Assembly (NCBI RefSeq): GCF_004335085.1 | Contig: NZ_RQRS01000008.1 | Span: 62,001-126,000 of the forward strand | Length of the DNA stretch: 64,000 bases | Direction of reading: 5' to 3' | Source: Pedobacter nototheniae | GTDB lineage: Bacteria > Bacteroidota > Bacteroidia > Sphingobacteriales > Sphingobacteriaceae | In this document: positions 10,977 through 59,688 of the stretch, piece by piece | How the letters are laid out: each line of letters begins with the position of its first letter | Numbering within the stretch: the first letter of the stretch is position 1 | Notes under the pieces: generated by a model | Told to the model about the DNA's origin: nothing | Seen by the model: only the letters and a program-made list of their open reading frames with translations | Database searches by the model: none | Made by a program: the position numbers and the translations under genes

Positions 10977-12038
10977 TTGACAACTAGACCACTATCTGTA
11001 CCACAGATAAAAAAAATATCTTCGGCAATCGCTATTGCATGGATTGTTTTATGTGCAGTAGGATTGCATTATTATATTAATTTTTCGTGGTTAATTTCCT
11101 TTACCGATAGTTTTATAAGTAATTTTTTGTTGGCCATAGCTTGCATAAGCATTAGCAATATGTTAGGATATTATCAGCCTAAAAACGAAAGGATTTTATA
11201 TGTTTTAATTGTTACGCTGGCTTTAACATTTGTAATACTTTATATAGCAAAATATAGCTTGTTTTATGTTTTCGCTGATTTTAAAAATTACAAGGATTTT
11301 TATAATTTCTCTTTTCCGTTTAGAGGGTTAATTACGTTTATGTGCTTGGGATGGTGTGCCTTAGCTAATATTTTATGGTATAGGCTAGAGGAACAATCGG
11401 AAACTCAATCGCGTCTTTTATCTGCTCAAAACCTTGCCAAAGAAGCAGAATTAAACAAGCTAAGACATCAGCTACAACCACATTTTTTATTCAATAGTTT
11501 AAATTCAGTTTTTGCATTAACAATGGTTAATCCAAAAGAAGCAGGTGTAATGATTACTAAATTAGCATCTTTTTTAAGAGGGACGTTAAAACGTGATGAT
11601 GAATTATGGGTTTCGGTAGAGGAGGAGATGGAATACATTCAGCTTTACCTGGATATTGAAAAAGTAAGGTTTAGCCATCGATTAAATATAGAAGTTAATG
11701 TTGCTGATGACACTCTTAAGCTTTGTTTACCAGGAACATTGCTTCAGCCTATCGTAGAAAATGCCATAAAGTTTGGTTTATACAACACATCGGCAGGTAT
11801 AACTATAAAAATTGATGTTAGCGTACAGCAGCAAATTTTAAAGGTTAGGGTGCAAAATCCTTTCGATCCTGAAATGAAAGCTGCCGGAGGAACAGGTTTC
11901 GGCTTGACAGCGATAAAAAGAAGATTATATTTGCTTTTTGCTAACGCCGATTTATTGCAAACCGAAACTGAGGCAAATAATTTATATATTACCACCTTAA
12001 AAATTCCTCAAAAAAATGATCAGAACTATACTAATTGA
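10977..12038 (+). CDS. LytS-type sensor histidine kinase
   Basis: A 353-residue kinase of the LytS/YehU class (His_kinase, PF06580 type). Four hydrophobic segments occupy about 14-135, then the phosphoacceptor region LRHQLQPHFLFNSLNS with H169, and an N box LLQPIVENAIKFGLY near 250-262, followed by a GTGFGLTAIKRR G box. The frame opens directly after the DUF4288 stop and has no ATG before the first membrane helix, so a TTG at 10977 is the likely start. It overlaps the response regulator by 23 bases, so the pair is translated together. The signal is unknown; the LiaF-like neighbour hints at envelope state. Confidence 0.92.
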   Translation: MTTRPLSVPQIKKISSAIAIAWIVLCAVGLHYYINFSWLISFTDSFISNFLLAIACISISNMLGYYQPKNERILYVLIVTLALTFVILYIAKYSLFYVFADFKNYKDFYNFSFPFRGLITFMCLGWCALANILWYRLEEQSETQSRLLSAQNLAKEAELNKLRHQLQPHFLFNSLNSVFALTMVNPKEAGVMITKLASFLRGTLKRDDELWVSVEEEMEYIQLYLDIEKVRFSHRLNIEVNVADDTLKLCLPGTLLQPIVENAIKFGLYNTSAGITIKIDVSVQQQILKVRVQNPFDPEMKAAGGTGFGLTAIKRRLYLLFANADLLQTETEANNLYITTLKIPQKNDQNYTN

Positions 12039-12750
12039 TGATGAACCTCTAGCCAGGGATATTGTAAAACATTATCTTTCTGATTATAAAGACATAGAAA
12101 TTATAGCTGAATGTAATGATGGTTTTGAAGGCCTGAAAGCCATTAGTTCGCATAAGCCTGACCTTATTTTCTTGGATATCCAGATGCCGAAAATTAGCGG
12201 TTTCGAAATGCTCGAACTTGTTGAAAATAAGCCTGCCGTTATTTTTACTACCGCATTTGATGAGTTTGCAATAAAGGCTTTTGAGGTAAATGCCGTAGAT
12301 TACCTATTAAAACCTATAGATAAAACTCGTTTTGATCAGGCAATGCAGAAGTTACCTTCGCGTTTAAATCAGTCAGAAAATACCGAAGCAGTTTTAGATG
12401 CAGCAGCTTTAAGCCCTGCTCAAAATAATAGGGTAGTGGTGAAAAAGGATGGCGTAATTAAAATTATTCCTGTAGCTGATATAAATTATCTAGAAGCCGA
12501 TGATGATTACGTGAAATTAAGCACTGTTGATGGCTCATTTTATAAGAATAAAACCATGTCTTTCTTTGAGCAAACGCTCGACGCTACTCAATTTATAAGA
12601 ATCCATCGCTCTTACATTATTAACCTTGCACAAGTAACTAAAATTGAACTTAAGGAAAAAGATAGTTATGTAGTTCTTTTAAAATCAGATATCTGGTTGC
12701 CTGTGAGCAAAACTGGTTATGTTAAATTAAAGGCTGCACTTGGTATGTAA
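12016..12750 (+). CDS. LytTR-family response regulator
   Basis: A 244-residue regulator. The receiver domain spans about 1-120 with acidic pocket DDE at 8-10, phosphoacceptor D54 in FLDIQMP, T79/T80 and K99 in LLKP. A LytTR DNA-binding domain occupies about 140-244 (INYLEADDDYVKL, FIRIHRSYIINL). The partner kinase gene overlaps its start. Targets are not evident; LytTR proteins in this phylum often act on genes nearby. Confidence 0.94.
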   Translation: MIRTILIDDEPLARDIVKHYLSDYKDIEIIAECNDGFEGLKAISSHKPDLIFLDIQMPKISGFEMLELVENKPAVIFTTAFDEFAIKAFEVNAVDYLLKPIDKTRFDQAMQKLPSRLNQSENTEAVLDAAALSPAQNNRVVVKKDGVIKIIPVADINYLEADDDYVKLSTVDGSFYKNKTMSFFEQTLDATQFIRIHRSYIINLAQVTKIELKEKDSYVVLLKSDIWLPVSKTGYVKLKAALGM

Positions 12751-53767: not shown

Positions 53768-53803
53768 AAAAAAGAGCGGCTGTAATTAAACAGTCGCTCT
53801 TTA
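53768..53803. terminator. Terminator between ASKHA gene and mqnC
   Basis: AAAGAGCGGCTG at 53771-53782 pairs with 53791-53802 with a single G-T mismatch over an eight-base loop. It lies 18 bases after the ASKHA gene stop, and would end the three-gene cassette. Confidence 0.7.
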
Positions 53804-53820
53804 ACTTTATATTTTTGATT

Positions 53821-54816
53821 TTATTTTAAAGCTAATAAGAAACCAATGGTAAAGTTAGCATCCCAATCAAATACAAAAGTATCGCAGTTGGTTGCATCCT
53901 TTATAGCTTTATAGATATTTACACCACTTTTAATCTTTATTTTATCGGTATTGTATTTATCTGGATTATTTAAAACGGTAAATCTTTCTTCTCCTGTTCT
54001 AGTCTGTTTAGCAAGCTCAAAAGGCACACCACCGATGATGAAGCAAACTTCGCGTTTTCCTGATGGAATTTTTGAAGAAATAGATTTTACAACATTATAA
54101 ACGGCATCGTCTTTTAAGTTTTTCTCGTAATATTTTGCACCTGGAGCTTCAGCAGATTTAATGTCACCATCCATCCAAGAAACTTTTGTATTACCAGAAC
54201 CTATATCTACAACAAAAGAATTATCGTAGTATGAAGGAGGTAAAACGCACTTTAAAGCCAATTTGCCTTCTTGCTCTGCTGTAACCAAGTTAACAACAAA
54301 GCCCATTTTCTTTAATTCGGAAACGATAGCTGCTGTTTTAGGTTCTTTTTGTGCACCTGAACTAATTACAAAGTGAATATTTTTTGATTTAACGCCTTTA
54401 TCAAACATGGCGCCTATATAATCTTTTAGGCCAGTTCTAATATCAGCTGTGCTAGCCATACCTTCGTAAACAAAAGATTTACCGAAATCTTTAGAAATAA
54501 TTTCCCAACGTTTTTCTTTATCAATATTTACTACGAAAGAGTTAAAGCCTGATGCACCAACTTCAACAACACCTTTATATTCGCCATTTACAGGTTTTTC
54601 TGGTATGTAGTTAAAACTTCTTTTATCATCATTTTTGGCTGCAACAGGGGATGAGGATGATTGTTCAGTGCTGTCTTTTTTACCTCCGCCAACATTTGAT
54701 ACAGCATCAATTTTTCCTGATTCAAAAGCCCAGTAGCCTAAGCCAATAATTGGTATTGCAATAATAATTGCCTTTATAGGCCAGCGTAATCTTGCCCAGA
54801 TTGATTTTTCTTCCAT
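53821..54816 (-). CDS. Membrane-anchored ASKHA-fold protein, Ppx/GppA-like
   Basis: A 331-residue protein. A single membrane helix at about 13-31 (PIKAIIIAIPIIGLGYWAF) is followed by a Ser/Lys-rich linker to about 72, then an ASKHA domain. Phosphate loops are VVEVGASG at 83-90 and VVDIGSGNTKVSW at 202-214, with a Ppx-like VTAEQEGKLALKCVL at 178-191. Compared with Ppx/GppA the first loop has Glu85 instead of Asp. This suggests a nucleotide-binding or polyphosphate/ppGpp-related role, or a degenerate one. It is the third gene of a tight operon with two coiled-coil proteins. The side of the membrane that the domain faces is unclear. Confidence 0.7.
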   Translation of the reverse strand: MEEKSIWARLRWPIKAIIIAIPIIGLGYWAFESGKIDAVSNVGGGKKDSTEQSSSSPVAAKNDDKRSFNYIPEKPVNGEYKGVVEVGASGFNSFVVNIDKEKRWEIISKDFGKSFVYEGMASTADIRTGLKDYIGAMFDKGVKSKNIHFVISSGAQKEPKTAAIVSELKKMGFVVNLVTAEQEGKLALKCVLPPSYYDNSFVVDIGSGNTKVSWMDGDIKSAEAPGAKYYEKNLKDDAVYNVVKSISSKIPSGKREVCFIIGGVPFELAKQTRTGEERFTVLNNPDKYNTDKIKIKSGVNIYKAIKDATNCDTFVFDWDANFTIGFLLALK

Positions 54817-54844
54817 TGTGGTAAGTGTTTAATTTAAATATTGA

Positions 54845-55954
54845 TTAGTCTAATAATGAAAATCCTTTATCTACTTTTTCTTCAGGTTTAAGCTCATAAG
54901 AAGCATCAGCCATTCTGCTTACATTAAGCATTTTAAGGTTGCGATCGTCTACTTTTTTGATAAACTCTTCTAATTCACTTTGTGATGGCGCACCGCCAAC
55001 GGTAATGTTATTGTTTTGATCTAAGAAATCAAGATTTGAACGAATAGATGCTATGTTTTGGCTAATGGCACCCGTGGCTGCATTCATAGCTTCCTGGAAA
55101 GCCCATCCATCTTTAATGTTGAATACTTCTGCAAGACCTTCAGTAGCATTTTTCATTTTTTGAGTTGCTTCCAATTTTTTAGAAATGATGGAAATACTGC
55201 TATCCAATGTACTTACATAAATACGAGCAGCACTTTCATTATCTTTCAAAACCTCTAAAACCTTAGCAAACTGATTGGCATATTGTACATAGCTGCGGGC
55301 ATTTTGCTCTTCAGCTTCGCCTTCCTTACCTAATAAAAATGCCTTCGTACGGGTTTCTTTGGCATCTCTGTTTAAATCGTTGGCTTTTTCGATATTATTG
55401 TTTGTGGTTTCCTGTTTTGCTTTCTCATCTAAACTTGCTGCCTCAACGGTGAAACGTTTGGCATAAGTATATTTTTCTTCAGCAGTTTTTTGTGCTGTTT
55501 CTCCGCTTTGAACCATATCAATACGAACGCCATCAACATTTGCAATTTTATCTTTTACTCTTTTTAAAGTGTCTTTTGCATCTTTTGATAATAGTTGAAG
55601 CGTTTCGATAGGGTTGCCTCTAATGATTGCTTTTTCGCCTTTAAAAATTAAAATTGTACCTAAACGGTTTAATAATGCAATAATTTTTGGCGCCAATAAA
55701 AGCAAAACAATAAGTATAATACTAAAAATAACTAATAGAATACTTTTAGCTGCATAAACCAGCATGATTGGTAAAAATTTAAAAAATGCAAATGCACCTC
55801 CTAAAATAAGCGCCCAAAAAAAGATACTTGAAATTACCTTTTTTCCTTCAGGAGTTTGTACCTGACTGGGAAGATGATCGCCCAAGACCTGAAATATAGG
55901 CAGCTGACTCTTAATTTCAGCTGGAATATTTACATACTGATTTTTGTTTTCCAT
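54845..55954 (-). CDS. Two-helix membrane protein with long coiled coil
   Basis: A 369-residue protein I do not recognise by name. Two adjacent hydrophobic segments occupy about 41-88 (SSIFFWALILGGAFAFFKF and the following SILLVIFSIILIVLLLLAP). The remainder is a long helical coiled coil (TAEEKYTYAKRFTVEAASLD, then ARSYVQYANQFAKVLEVLKD), with a C-terminal ordered segment (ELEEFIKKVDDRNLKMLNVS). The pattern is reminiscent of PspA/TerB-associated membrane scaffolds. It sits 28 bases before the ASKHA gene and 24 bases after the coiled-coil gene. Confidence 0.65.
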   Translation of the reverse strand: MENKNQYVNIPAEIKSQLPIFQVLGDHLPSQVQTPEGKKVISSIFFWALILGGAFAFFKFLPIMLVYAAKSILLVIFSIILIVLLLLAPKIIALLNRLGTILIFKGEKAIIRGNPIETLQLLSKDAKDTLKRVKDKIANVDGVRIDMVQSGETAQKTAEEKYTYAKRFTVEAASLDEKAKQETTNNNIEKANDLNRDAKETRTKAFLLGKEGEAEEQNARSYVQYANQFAKVLEVLKDNESAARIYVSTLDSSISIISKKLEATQKMKNATEGLAEVFNIKDGWAFQEAMNAATGAISQNIASIRSNLDFLDQNNNITVGGAPSQSELEEFIKKVDDRNLKMLNVSRMADASYELKPEEKVDKGFSLLD

Positions 55955-55978
55955 TACTTGTCGTTAATTTTTAATCGT

Positions 55979-56689
55979 TTAATTTATGTTTGTTTCAATA
56001 ATGTTTAATGCTTTTTCAATATCTGCAATTACCTCATTAACCGCTGCATTGCCTAATGCAATTTTTTGATCAATATCTTTCAGTTGCGGATCGTATTTGG
56101 CGTTTATACTTTTTAAATCTTGTTCTTTTGCTTGTAGTTTAGCTTTAAGGTCGGCAATGTTTTGTTCAATAGATTTAATTTCGTTTACCAAGCTATCTTT
56201 TTCATCAACCAAATTATTTTCTATAGTTTGCTTTTGCTGTTGTTTCTGGCTACTTTCCTGGTCTATAACCTTCTTTAATTCGGTAGCATAATTTCTACCT
56301 GTAGTAAGTAGCTTTTGTTTATTTAAATCTTTCTCTACATATTTTAATGATGTAAAAGCAGCTTTTATAGTTGTAGCATCAATACTTCCCATTTCTGCTG
56401 CAGCATTCCAAACTTCAAAAAAATCAAGTCCTGGTTCGTTCATTCTTTCTAGCATGCCCAAAACTTTTACTTTCATTTGCTTAACATCGGTAACGCCTAT
56501 TACAGTAACATTTTCTTTTAGATTAACCTGTGGCTGGTTAGTTACAGGTTCGGGCGCTTTTGCATTTTCTTGAACAGGGTTTTGCCCCTTATCTTGCATG
56601 TTATCAGTTGTTTCTGCACTATCTTCGAATATTAGTTTTTTTAAGCTATTTAAAATTCCAAAAGAACTTTTTGCTGTTTCCTCGCCCAT
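55979..56689 (-). CDS. Soluble coiled-coil protein, first gene of the cassette
   Basis: A 236-residue cytosolic protein I do not recognise. Residues 1-55 are flexible and acidic/Gln-rich, then a helical domain (VTDVKQMKVKVLGMLERMNE), and a long coiled coil (ENNLVDEKDSLVNEIKSIEQ, then DLKAKLQAKEQDLKSINAKY) to the end. No catalytic motif is visible. It leads an operon with the membrane coiled-coil and ASKHA proteins, which suggests the three form one assembly. Confidence 0.65.
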   Translation of the reverse strand: MGEETAKSSFGILNSLKKLIFEDSAETTDNMQDKGQNPVQENAKAPEPVTNQPQVNLKENVTVIGVTDVKQMKVKVLGMLERMNEPGLDFFEVWNAAAEMGSIDATTIKAAFTSLKYVEKDLNKQKLLTTGRNYATELKKVIDQESSQKQQQKQTIENNLVDEKDSLVNEIKSIEQNIADLKAKLQAKEQDLKSINAKYDPQLKDIDQKIALGNAAVNEVIADIEKALNIIETNIN

Positions 56690-59385: not shown

Positions 59386-59688
59386 CTTGGTAATGCTCGC
59401 ATATGGCTTGGTAACGGTCGCATGAGACTTGGTAATGCTCGCATGAGACTTGGTAACGGTCGCATGAGACTTGGTAACGGTCGCATGAGACTTGGTAACG
59501 GTCGCATGAGACTTGGTAACGGTCGCATGAGACTTGGTAATGCTCGCATGAGACTTGGTAACGGTTGCATATGACTTGGTAACGGTTGCATATGACTTGG
59601 TAACAGTCTCGAATGACTTGGTAACTGTCGCATATGGCTTGGTAATGGTTGAATATGGCTTGGTAATGGTTGAATATGGCTTGGTAAG
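59386..59688. repeat. 21-bp tandem repeat array
   Basis: Fourteen complete units of exactly 21 bases, starting CTTGG, run from 59386 to 59679, plus a nine-base partial unit. The central core unit is CTTGGTAACGGTCGCATGAG plus A; two-base TGC variants (TAATGCTCGC) interrupt it, and outer units are more diverged (TTGCATATGA, TTGAATATGG). Because the unit is a multiple of three, several frames stay open through it; the frames are not taken as genes. It lies between the M16 operon and ppnP, and could be a VNTR. Confidence 0.92.

Follow-up and report, generated by a model that had tools for sequence, protein, structure and literature searches.

The locus and the question it raises

What is the function of three adjacent genes in Pedobacter nototheniae that encode a coiled-coil protein (P3), a membrane coiled-coil protein (P2) and a membrane-anchored protein with a Ppx/GppA-like ASKHA domain (P1)? 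The genes are located in a 64,000-nucleotide stretch of DNA (hereafter the window) from a genome of 5.26 million bases. The reading that we prefer, and to which we give an even chance, is that this trio is a phage shock protein (PSP)-like envelope module of the inner membrane, wherein the tethered Ppx-like domain of P1 is the extracytoplasmic sensor. The arguments for it come from the conservation of the locus, the predicted fold and fixed residues of P1, the signal sequences of P1 relatives, and the homology of P2 to a membrane protein of operons that also encode an OmpA-domain protein. The features concerned are as follows, where ORF denotes an open reading frame.

55979..56689, minus strand: P3, an ORF of 236 amino acids that combines a small conserved domain with an amphipathic segment at the N-terminus and a coiled coil at the C-terminus, and lacks a transmembrane helix
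54845..55954, minus strand: P2, an ORF of 369 amino acids with a pair of hydrophobic helices close to the N-terminus, a long coiled coil and a distant likeness to PspA via intermediates
53821..54816, minus strand: P1, an ORF of 331 amino acids with an N-terminal membrane anchor, a linker and a predicted Ppx/GppA-like ASKHA domain
54721..54783, minus strand: P1 anchor helix, residues 12-32, from model secondary structure and hydropathy
53824..54582, minus strand: P1 Ppx-like domain, residues 79-331, the range aligned to 6pc1_A by VIA-align
within 53824..54582, minus strand: P1 landmarks, namely loop 1 at residues 84-93, catalytic-type Glu183, Asp204 and Lys211, from counts over 61 sequences and the register to Aquifex Ppx/GppA
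53771..53802, no strand assigned: palindromic hairpin with a 13-pair stem, located 3' of P1 and followed by a minus-strand T-run, the probable terminator of the trio

An earlier note, made from the sequence alone, had described three genes of one direction that end at a hairpin, and the ORF list and a hairpin scan place all of these elements as it said, with the order P3, P2, P1 and spacers of 24 and 28 bases. Read on the minus strand, the hairpin runs into TTTTTTATG and divides the trio from the next gene on that strand. A scan for terminator-like sites between 52000 and 58500 did no better than chance (4 found, 5.0 expected), and the assignment of the hairpin as a terminator therefore rests on its length and place. 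A promoter scan was uninformative (24 sites versus 23.7 expected).

The membrane layout that had been proposed also agrees with hydropathy. In P2, the 19-residue windows that start at 39-86 form a long hydrophobic stretch, which dips at 52-54 as expected for two helices. P1 has a single weaker stretch (19-residue windows starting at 6-16), and P3 has none (19-residue maximum 0.88). The motifs named for P1 are present in its translation as well, with the two phosphate loops represented by VEVGASG from residue 84 and VDIGSGNTKVSW at residue 203, and VTAEQEGKL at residue 178.

Conservation of the trio

About 85,000 species genomes were scanned for exact short peptides, which favours close relatives, and 114 loci encoding relatives were obtained. 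The best 80 of these form the locus set, and the remaining 34 lie outside it. The order P3-P2-P1 is found in 47 of the 80 loci, one of which carries an extra P1 fragment. The second most common arrangement, present in 22 loci, places genes for a von Willebrand factor A (vWA) protein, a PP2C phosphatase and a Ser/Thr kinase (STK) before P1 and P3. There are also four P3-P2'-P1 loci, wherein P2' is a diverged P2, five loci with P1 only, one with P3 and P1, and one with P2 only. The last of these (L092) was scored from its ORF list, although tblastn matched P1 there, and no P3 ORF was called at L199. One of the five P1-only loci (L107) comes from a genome that carries a P3-P2 pair elsewhere (L198). 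The record of L107 is named Williamsia (Actinomycetota), its P1 is typical of Bacteroidota, and the bin is probably mislabelled.

A P3 homologue is present in 74 of the 80 loci. The median gaps are 10 nucleotides from P3 to P2 (n=47), 31 from P2 to P1 (n=47) and 9 from P1 to P3 (n=22). Substitutions in all three genes are mostly synonymous, and the ratio of nonsynonymous to synonymous substitution rates (dN/dS) is 0.025-0.093 against one related genome (G136) and 0.028-0.061 against another (G104), the closest two comparisons, with more distant pairs mostly saturated. Because the order recurs in 47 of 80 loci and dN/dS is low, the trio is a real unit, beyond chance. The earlier note had allowed that the neighbourhood might be confined to this genome, or that P1 might match a fold other than ASKHA with confidence; neither outcome was found, and the evidence on the fold is given in the next section.

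The relatives span Pedobacter, Sphingobacterium, Chitinophaga, Niabella, Taibaiella, Segetibacter, Hymenobacter, Rufibacter, Telluribacter, Runella and others. P1 was detected in 55 of 400 genomes of the order, one of them (G417) by a short match to residues 1-52. In the phylum it was detected in 18 of 395 genomes, although 8 of these 18 are weak matches (E 1e-10 to 1e-3) and some may be ordinary Ppx proteins; the phylum scans were samples of 395 genomes each. Among 59 relatives, P1 and P2 are found in the same 6 genomes.

Predicted fold and active site of P1

An AlphaFold2 model of P1 built with a 48-sequence alignment has a predicted local distance difference test (pLDDT) of 84.1 and a predicted template modelling score (pTM) of 0.74. 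This was the only usable model; one from a 12-row alignment was poor (pLDDT 48.1). Rows 1-35 of a Foldseek search are all Ppx/GppA entries, with E from 1.3e-13. Rows 1-23 of VIA-align are likewise all Ppx/GppA, led by the Helicobacter pylori protein 6pc1_A (Z 23.4, root-mean-square deviation 3.0, 245 residues aligned). By this model, the P1 domain folds as a Ppx/GppA-type ASKHA domain, as the earlier note had supposed, and no other fold matched better. A PilM-like protein of type IV pili (T4P) or an MreB-like protein was also considered for P1 and was dropped in view of the uniform Foldseek rows.

Sequence profiles point the same way at lower strength. The Pfam Ppx-GppA family (PF02541) gives the window P1 (P0001) 14 bits, below its gathering cut-off of 27, and matches 40 of the 48 members of the P1 alignment (A2) at E <=0.1, with a best value of 1.7e-4. 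When the Protein Data Bank (PDB) was searched with a profile of the P1 family, Aquifex Ppx/GppA (1t6d) ranked first (E 0.0021), while a phmmer search of the PDB with P1 alone gave no match. A distant secreted P1 relative (L225) passes the Pfam cut-off with 57.5 bits. A secreted relative also matches the NCBI exopolyphosphatase model with E 2.9e-20 and 72.7 bits, below its 307-bit cut-off.

P1 shares with the Ppx/GppA phosphatases a two-domain ASKHA fold along residues 79-331, both glycine loops, a catalytic-type Glu and the loop-2 Asp. It differs from them in carrying Glu for Asp in loop 1, Lys for Glu in loop 2, and a membrane anchor and linker, and its domain is probably extracytoplasmic. 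In the profile alignment, Glu183, Asp204 and Lys211 face a Glu, an Asp and a Glu of the Aquifex protein, which are the catalytic base and metal ligands. The loop-1 Asp and the loop-2 Glu of the GGGSTE motif have functional roles in Ppx, the latter as a metal ligand. All three P1 residues are conserved in 61 of 61 P1-family sequences, and loop-1 residue 85 is Glu in 60 and Asp in one. The loop-1 change from Asp to Glu, to which the earlier note had drawn attention, is therefore real and nearly fixed. Because Glu183 and Lys211 are each invariant, the P1 family has kept the catalytic base and replaced a metal ligand with a fixed Lys. As judged from the alignment, this loop-2 change is the more telling of the two.

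These residues bear on one alternative, namely that P1 is an active extracytoplasmic phosphohydrolase, such as a periplasmic Ppx or apyrase, which acts on polyphosphate or nucleotides while P2 and P3 position it in the envelope. The invariant Glu183 and Asp204 would suit such an enzyme, as would the match of the secreted relative to the exopolyphosphatase model. In addition, the second-best fold family is that of the NTPDases or apyrases (GDA1_CD39), which are largely extracytoplasmic enzymes; they reach Z values of up to 18.8, about 5 Z units below Ppx/GppA, and show no sequence match to P1. However, a Lys in 61 of 61 sequences where Ppx has a metal-ligand Glu, and a Glu in 60 of 61 where it has the loop-1 Asp, argue against hydrolysis, and a plain scavenger would need neither conserved coiled-coil partners nor kinase and phosphatase neighbours. 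We therefore consider an active hydrolase unlikely.

Probable location of the P1 domain

P1 is probably a signal-anchor protein whose Ppx-like domain is extracytoplasmic, i.e. periplasmic, because lipoprotein or Sec-type signals occur in its relatives and because an OmpA-domain protein takes the same operon slot in other genomes. Lipoprotein-type signals are found at the start of four P1 relatives in two genomes (L227, L228), three of them by pattern and the fourth by eye, and Sec-type signals were read by eye at the start of three others (L225, L226, L233). Of 61 P1 sequences, 52 carry more positive charge before the anchor than after it, 3 carry as much and 6 carry less. The anchors of P1 relatives also resemble, by eye, those of the OmpA-domain proteins in the same slot (KLKPAGK start in L272, NKLTT start in L282).

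The two genomes with lipoprotein-type signals are related, and each carries two diverged P1 copies some 5 kb apart (L227:5386-6342 and 11116-12024; L228:5535-6476 and 11204-12166); for L228b an internal ATG was taken as the start. The relatives with Sec-type signals (L225:6790-7866, L226:7379-8437, L233:6210-7664) have a loop of the form DIG[SG]GNTK or DVGSGNTK, their C-terminal parts do not align with P1, and the L233 protein also has a TPR-like part by sub-threshold Pfam match. Together they hint that exported Ppx-like proteins form a broader family.

The earlier note had raised the idea of a membrane-tethered scaffold that senses nucleotides or polyphosphate, which can be read with the Ppx-like domain in the cytoplasm. 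The tethered Ppx-like fold of that proposal stands. A cytoplasmic site would be compatible with the retention of both phosphate loops and with the expected cytoplasmic location of P3 and, where present, of the triad kinase. However, the signals in P1 relatives point to the other side of the membrane, as does the presence of an OmpA-domain protein at this operon position elsewhere, which would make sensing of cytoplasmic ATP unlikely, and we regard the cytoplasmic version as improbable.

P2, P3 and the OmpA operon plan

P2 aligns over residues 18-366 with a pair alignment of two relatives (L282/L283, which holds the P2 of L282) at an hhalign E of 8.1e-18. Because this alignment covers the whole length, the window P2 is homologous to the membrane protein of an OmpA-type operon. 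P2' and P2 align over the membrane region (E 5.6e-7), and the L282/L283 pair aligns with the broad P2 family (E 2.1e-17). That broad family in turn aligns with PspA at E 2.6e-7. Plain coiled-coil coincidence was weighed by a control with the P3 coiled coil, which gave 1.1e-3. A profile of diverged P2 proteins (A5) picks up proteins assigned by Pfam to PspA_IM30 (E 5.8e-16 and 2.8e-20). By these comparisons, P2 would be PspA-like through intermediates and not a member of PspA itself. The second protein is a membrane coiled coil, as the earlier note had described, but it seems to belong to a PspA-like membrane family. Pfam shows no PspA_IM30 match for the window P2 (P0002) at E <=1, and searches of Pfam, NCBIfam, PADLOC and PHROGs were unhelpful for P2 and yielded just generic coiled-coil matches for P3. 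In the P3 family (75 members), the mean best N-terminal hydrophobic moment is 0.61 versus 0.45 for one shuffle of each sequence.

The P2 gene of a Hymenobacter locus (L200) is followed by one for an anchored protein with a C-terminal OmpA domain (E 1.4e-19), and the same slot is filled by anchored OmpA-domain proteins in L272 and L282 (E 2.2e-23 and 1.1e-20). ATP-binding cassette (ABC) permease-like and ATPase genes adjoin the OmpA-domain gene in L200, where they come after it, and in L282. P3 homologues precede P2 in L200, L270, L271, L272 and L282. Six further loci (L274, L276, L278-L281) have a P3-P2 pair with neither a Ppx-like nor an OmpA partner listed. Two Cytophagales genomes (G712 and G831) contain further P3-P2-P1 trios with strongly diverged P2 proteins, which are only about 20% identical to P2' and 31-33% identical to the P2 of L200.

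The main text of Ravi et al. 2024 (PMC11237479) describes PspA or TM-Snf7 genes together with ABC genes and a gene for an OmpA-domain binding protein, and the terms 'exopolyphosphatase', 'ASKHA', 'vWA' and 'tellur' are absent from it. With operons of that description, the trio shares a P2 homologous to the L282-type membrane coiled coil and a P3 homologue that precedes it. It differs from them in that its third gene is Ppx-like instead of encoding an OmpA domain, and in lacking an ABC transporter. Thus, the trio that had been taken as a unit is conserved, but it is one version of a wider theme in which P3-P2 occurs with other partners or none and P1-P3 occurs behind kinase triads.

Association with TerY-P kinase systems

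At a representative of the 22 triad loci (L105), Pfam identifies the upstream proteins as vWA (7.5e-15), PP2C_2 (5.8e-31) and Pkinase (3.9e-10), and the C-terminal end of the kinase reads CxxxxC...CPFCG, which is zinc-ribbon-like by eye. vWA, PP2C and kinase are the TerY-P composition stated in the CoCoNuT paper (PMC11090510), and the TerY-P triad comprises vWA, PP2C and a Ser/Thr kinase with a zinc ribbon (PMC11090510, PMC4978471). The triad lies directly upstream of P1-P3 in these loci, whereas there are no vWA, PP2C or kinase ORFs around the trio in the window. In the P1 tree, the 18 triad-type rows form one group with support 93/99. Because this single group is drawn from five families (Hymenobacteraceae, Chitinophagaceae, Sphingobacteriaceae, Spirosomataceae and Rhodocytophagaceae), transfer between families is indicated. 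In two Segetibacter genomes, vWA-PP2C-STK-P3 and P3-P2'-P1 lie at separate places, and in Runella PP2C and Ser/Thr kinase genes precede a second copy of P1. In a sister lineage, the position of P1 and P3 directly behind a TerY-P triad suggests a phosphorylation output.

The Runella copy (L202:5787-13137) is in a same-strand row with genes for PP2C, the Ser/Thr kinase and three small proteins whose starts resemble signals. Pedobacter also has Ter operons (L143-L148, L151, L153) with several TerD-like and vWA genes, and with PP2C, kinase and in some cases TerC-like genes, all named by eye, and no P1-P3 is marked there among the matches listed.

Another alternative is an anti-phage defence module that is patchy, mobile as a unit and partnered by TerY-P. 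P1 is present in 29 of 145 genomes of the genus. In one comparison (L037, genome G136), the proportion of synonymous differences (pS) is 0.33-0.36 in the trio versus 0.65-0.68 in the flanking mqnC-like and M16 peptidase-like genes, and this lower value suggests that the trio was exchanged as a unit between the species of the window and that of G136. There are two matches among 72,556 plasmid records, both from Hymenobacter, the second of which (H2) lacks the triad, and TerY-P-like modules are reported to act in phage defence (PMC11090510). Weighing against defence, PADLOC gives no match for P1 or P2 at E <=1 and two weak coiled-coil matches for P3 (0.13, 0.23), the triad kinase matches generic kinase models only, and none of 50,697 phage records matches. 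Furthermore, trio and flanks are no different in the second comparison (L042, genome G104), which carries no sign of exchange, and the 10 copies with listed flanks sit among ordinary genes, a count from flanking genes and not a systematic defence-island test. The chance of a defence module thus seems small to us.

The first plasmid copy, from Hymenobacter volaticus (L129:4782-10522), has recognisable vWA, PP2C, STK, P1 and P3 genes, of which PP2C, STK and P1 are each spread over two ORFs; it looks decayed or affected by sequencing errors.

A proposed PSP-like module with a Ppx-like sensor

The location, ligand, signalling route and membrane effect that we infer for a module akin to the PSP (PspA/ESCRT-III-like) systems would be as follows. 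P2 would be a two-helix membrane protein with a cytoplasmic PspA-like coiled coil, P3 would be its coiled-coil partner in the cytoplasm, perhaps in contact with the membrane via an N-terminal amphipathic helix, and P1 would be a signal-anchor protein with its Ppx/GppA-like domain on the periplasmic side. Perhaps this domain binds a phosphoanhydride-type anion, such as polyphosphate, pyrophosphate or released nucleotide, or a similar oxyanion, a ligand class taken from the fold only. The anchor might then relay the bound state to P2 and P3, and these two would stabilise or remodel the inner membrane. The tethered periplasmic domain may be exchangeable: some genomes would pair an OmpA-domain binding protein with an ABC transporter, others would have a Ppx-like domain, and in a third set of genomes the kinase triad would take the place of P2.

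Several results weigh against this proposal. The periplasmic location is argued by analogy, from signals read partly by eye and from a crude charge rule. Direct hhalign comparison of P2 with PspA fails (E 0.26), and the P2-PspA link therefore rests on intermediates with few, similar sequences. Profile A5 misses the window's own P2 in its genome and, at E <=1, retrieves neither PspA nor Vipp1 from the PDB, and PspA_IM30 matches only two of the seven A5 members, with 31 bits versus a cut-off of 33.9 where shown. For the solute-binding part of the OmpA protein there is only an NMT1 match below threshold, in a single protein (L200, 17.1 versus 20.5 bits), and the permease matches are below cut-off.

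The gene content of other genomes adds to these points. None of five Pedobacter genomes in which P1 stands alone has P2, and P2 is also missing from 12 of the 14 triad-type genomes tested; therefore, P1 can work without P2. The genome of the window (G000) has no match to the triad PP2C, which occurs in only 1 of 14 type-A genomes, compared with two of four A'-type, none of three other and five of five triad-type genomes. Within Pedobacter, this PP2C occurs in 17 of 145 genomes, and P1 and PP2C are found together in 5 of the 145 versus about 3.4 expected. At these counts, a genome-wide dependence on TerY-P, which had also been considered, is unsupported.

A broader proposal, which we regard as possible and on balance doubtful, concerns the family as a whole. 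In Bacteroidota, a Ppx-like ASKHA domain would have moved out of the cytoplasm, acquired an invariant Lys in place of the Glu that binds metal, and taken on the role of periplasmic sensor in PspA-like modules and TerY-P systems. Such proteins would be extracytoplasmic phosphate-anion receptors that share one operon plan with ABC-type binding proteins and can stand in their place. The parts are of known kinds, namely the Ppx/GppA fold, the PspA-like coiled coil and the TerY-P triad. No description of a Ppx-like protein combined with either PspA-like or TerY-P genes was found among the matches listed, in a literature search that excluded most subscription journals.

Other features of the window

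The next gene beyond the hairpin is an ORF of 374 amino acids, which is presumably a radical SAM MqnC-like protein. An array of a 21-base unit (14.4 copies, 89% matches) is located at 59386-59687 of the window and has open frames on both strands.

Implications

Envelope-stress signalling in Bacteroidota is poorly known. The trio, which joins a probably extracytoplasmic relative of enzymes that cleave polyphosphate to coiled-coil proteins akin to those guarding membranes, suggests an undescribed envelope-stress sensor. The trigger of the TerY-P kinase system is a long-standing question, and the occurrence of a Ppx-like domain in operons both with PspA-like membrane proteins and with a kinase-phosphatase triad links these two fields, with P1 as a concrete candidate receptor that has a defined pocket. 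If the predicted location is true, P1 would be a bacterial ASKHA sensor of a rare type, placed outside the inner membrane and marked by a change from Glu to Lys.

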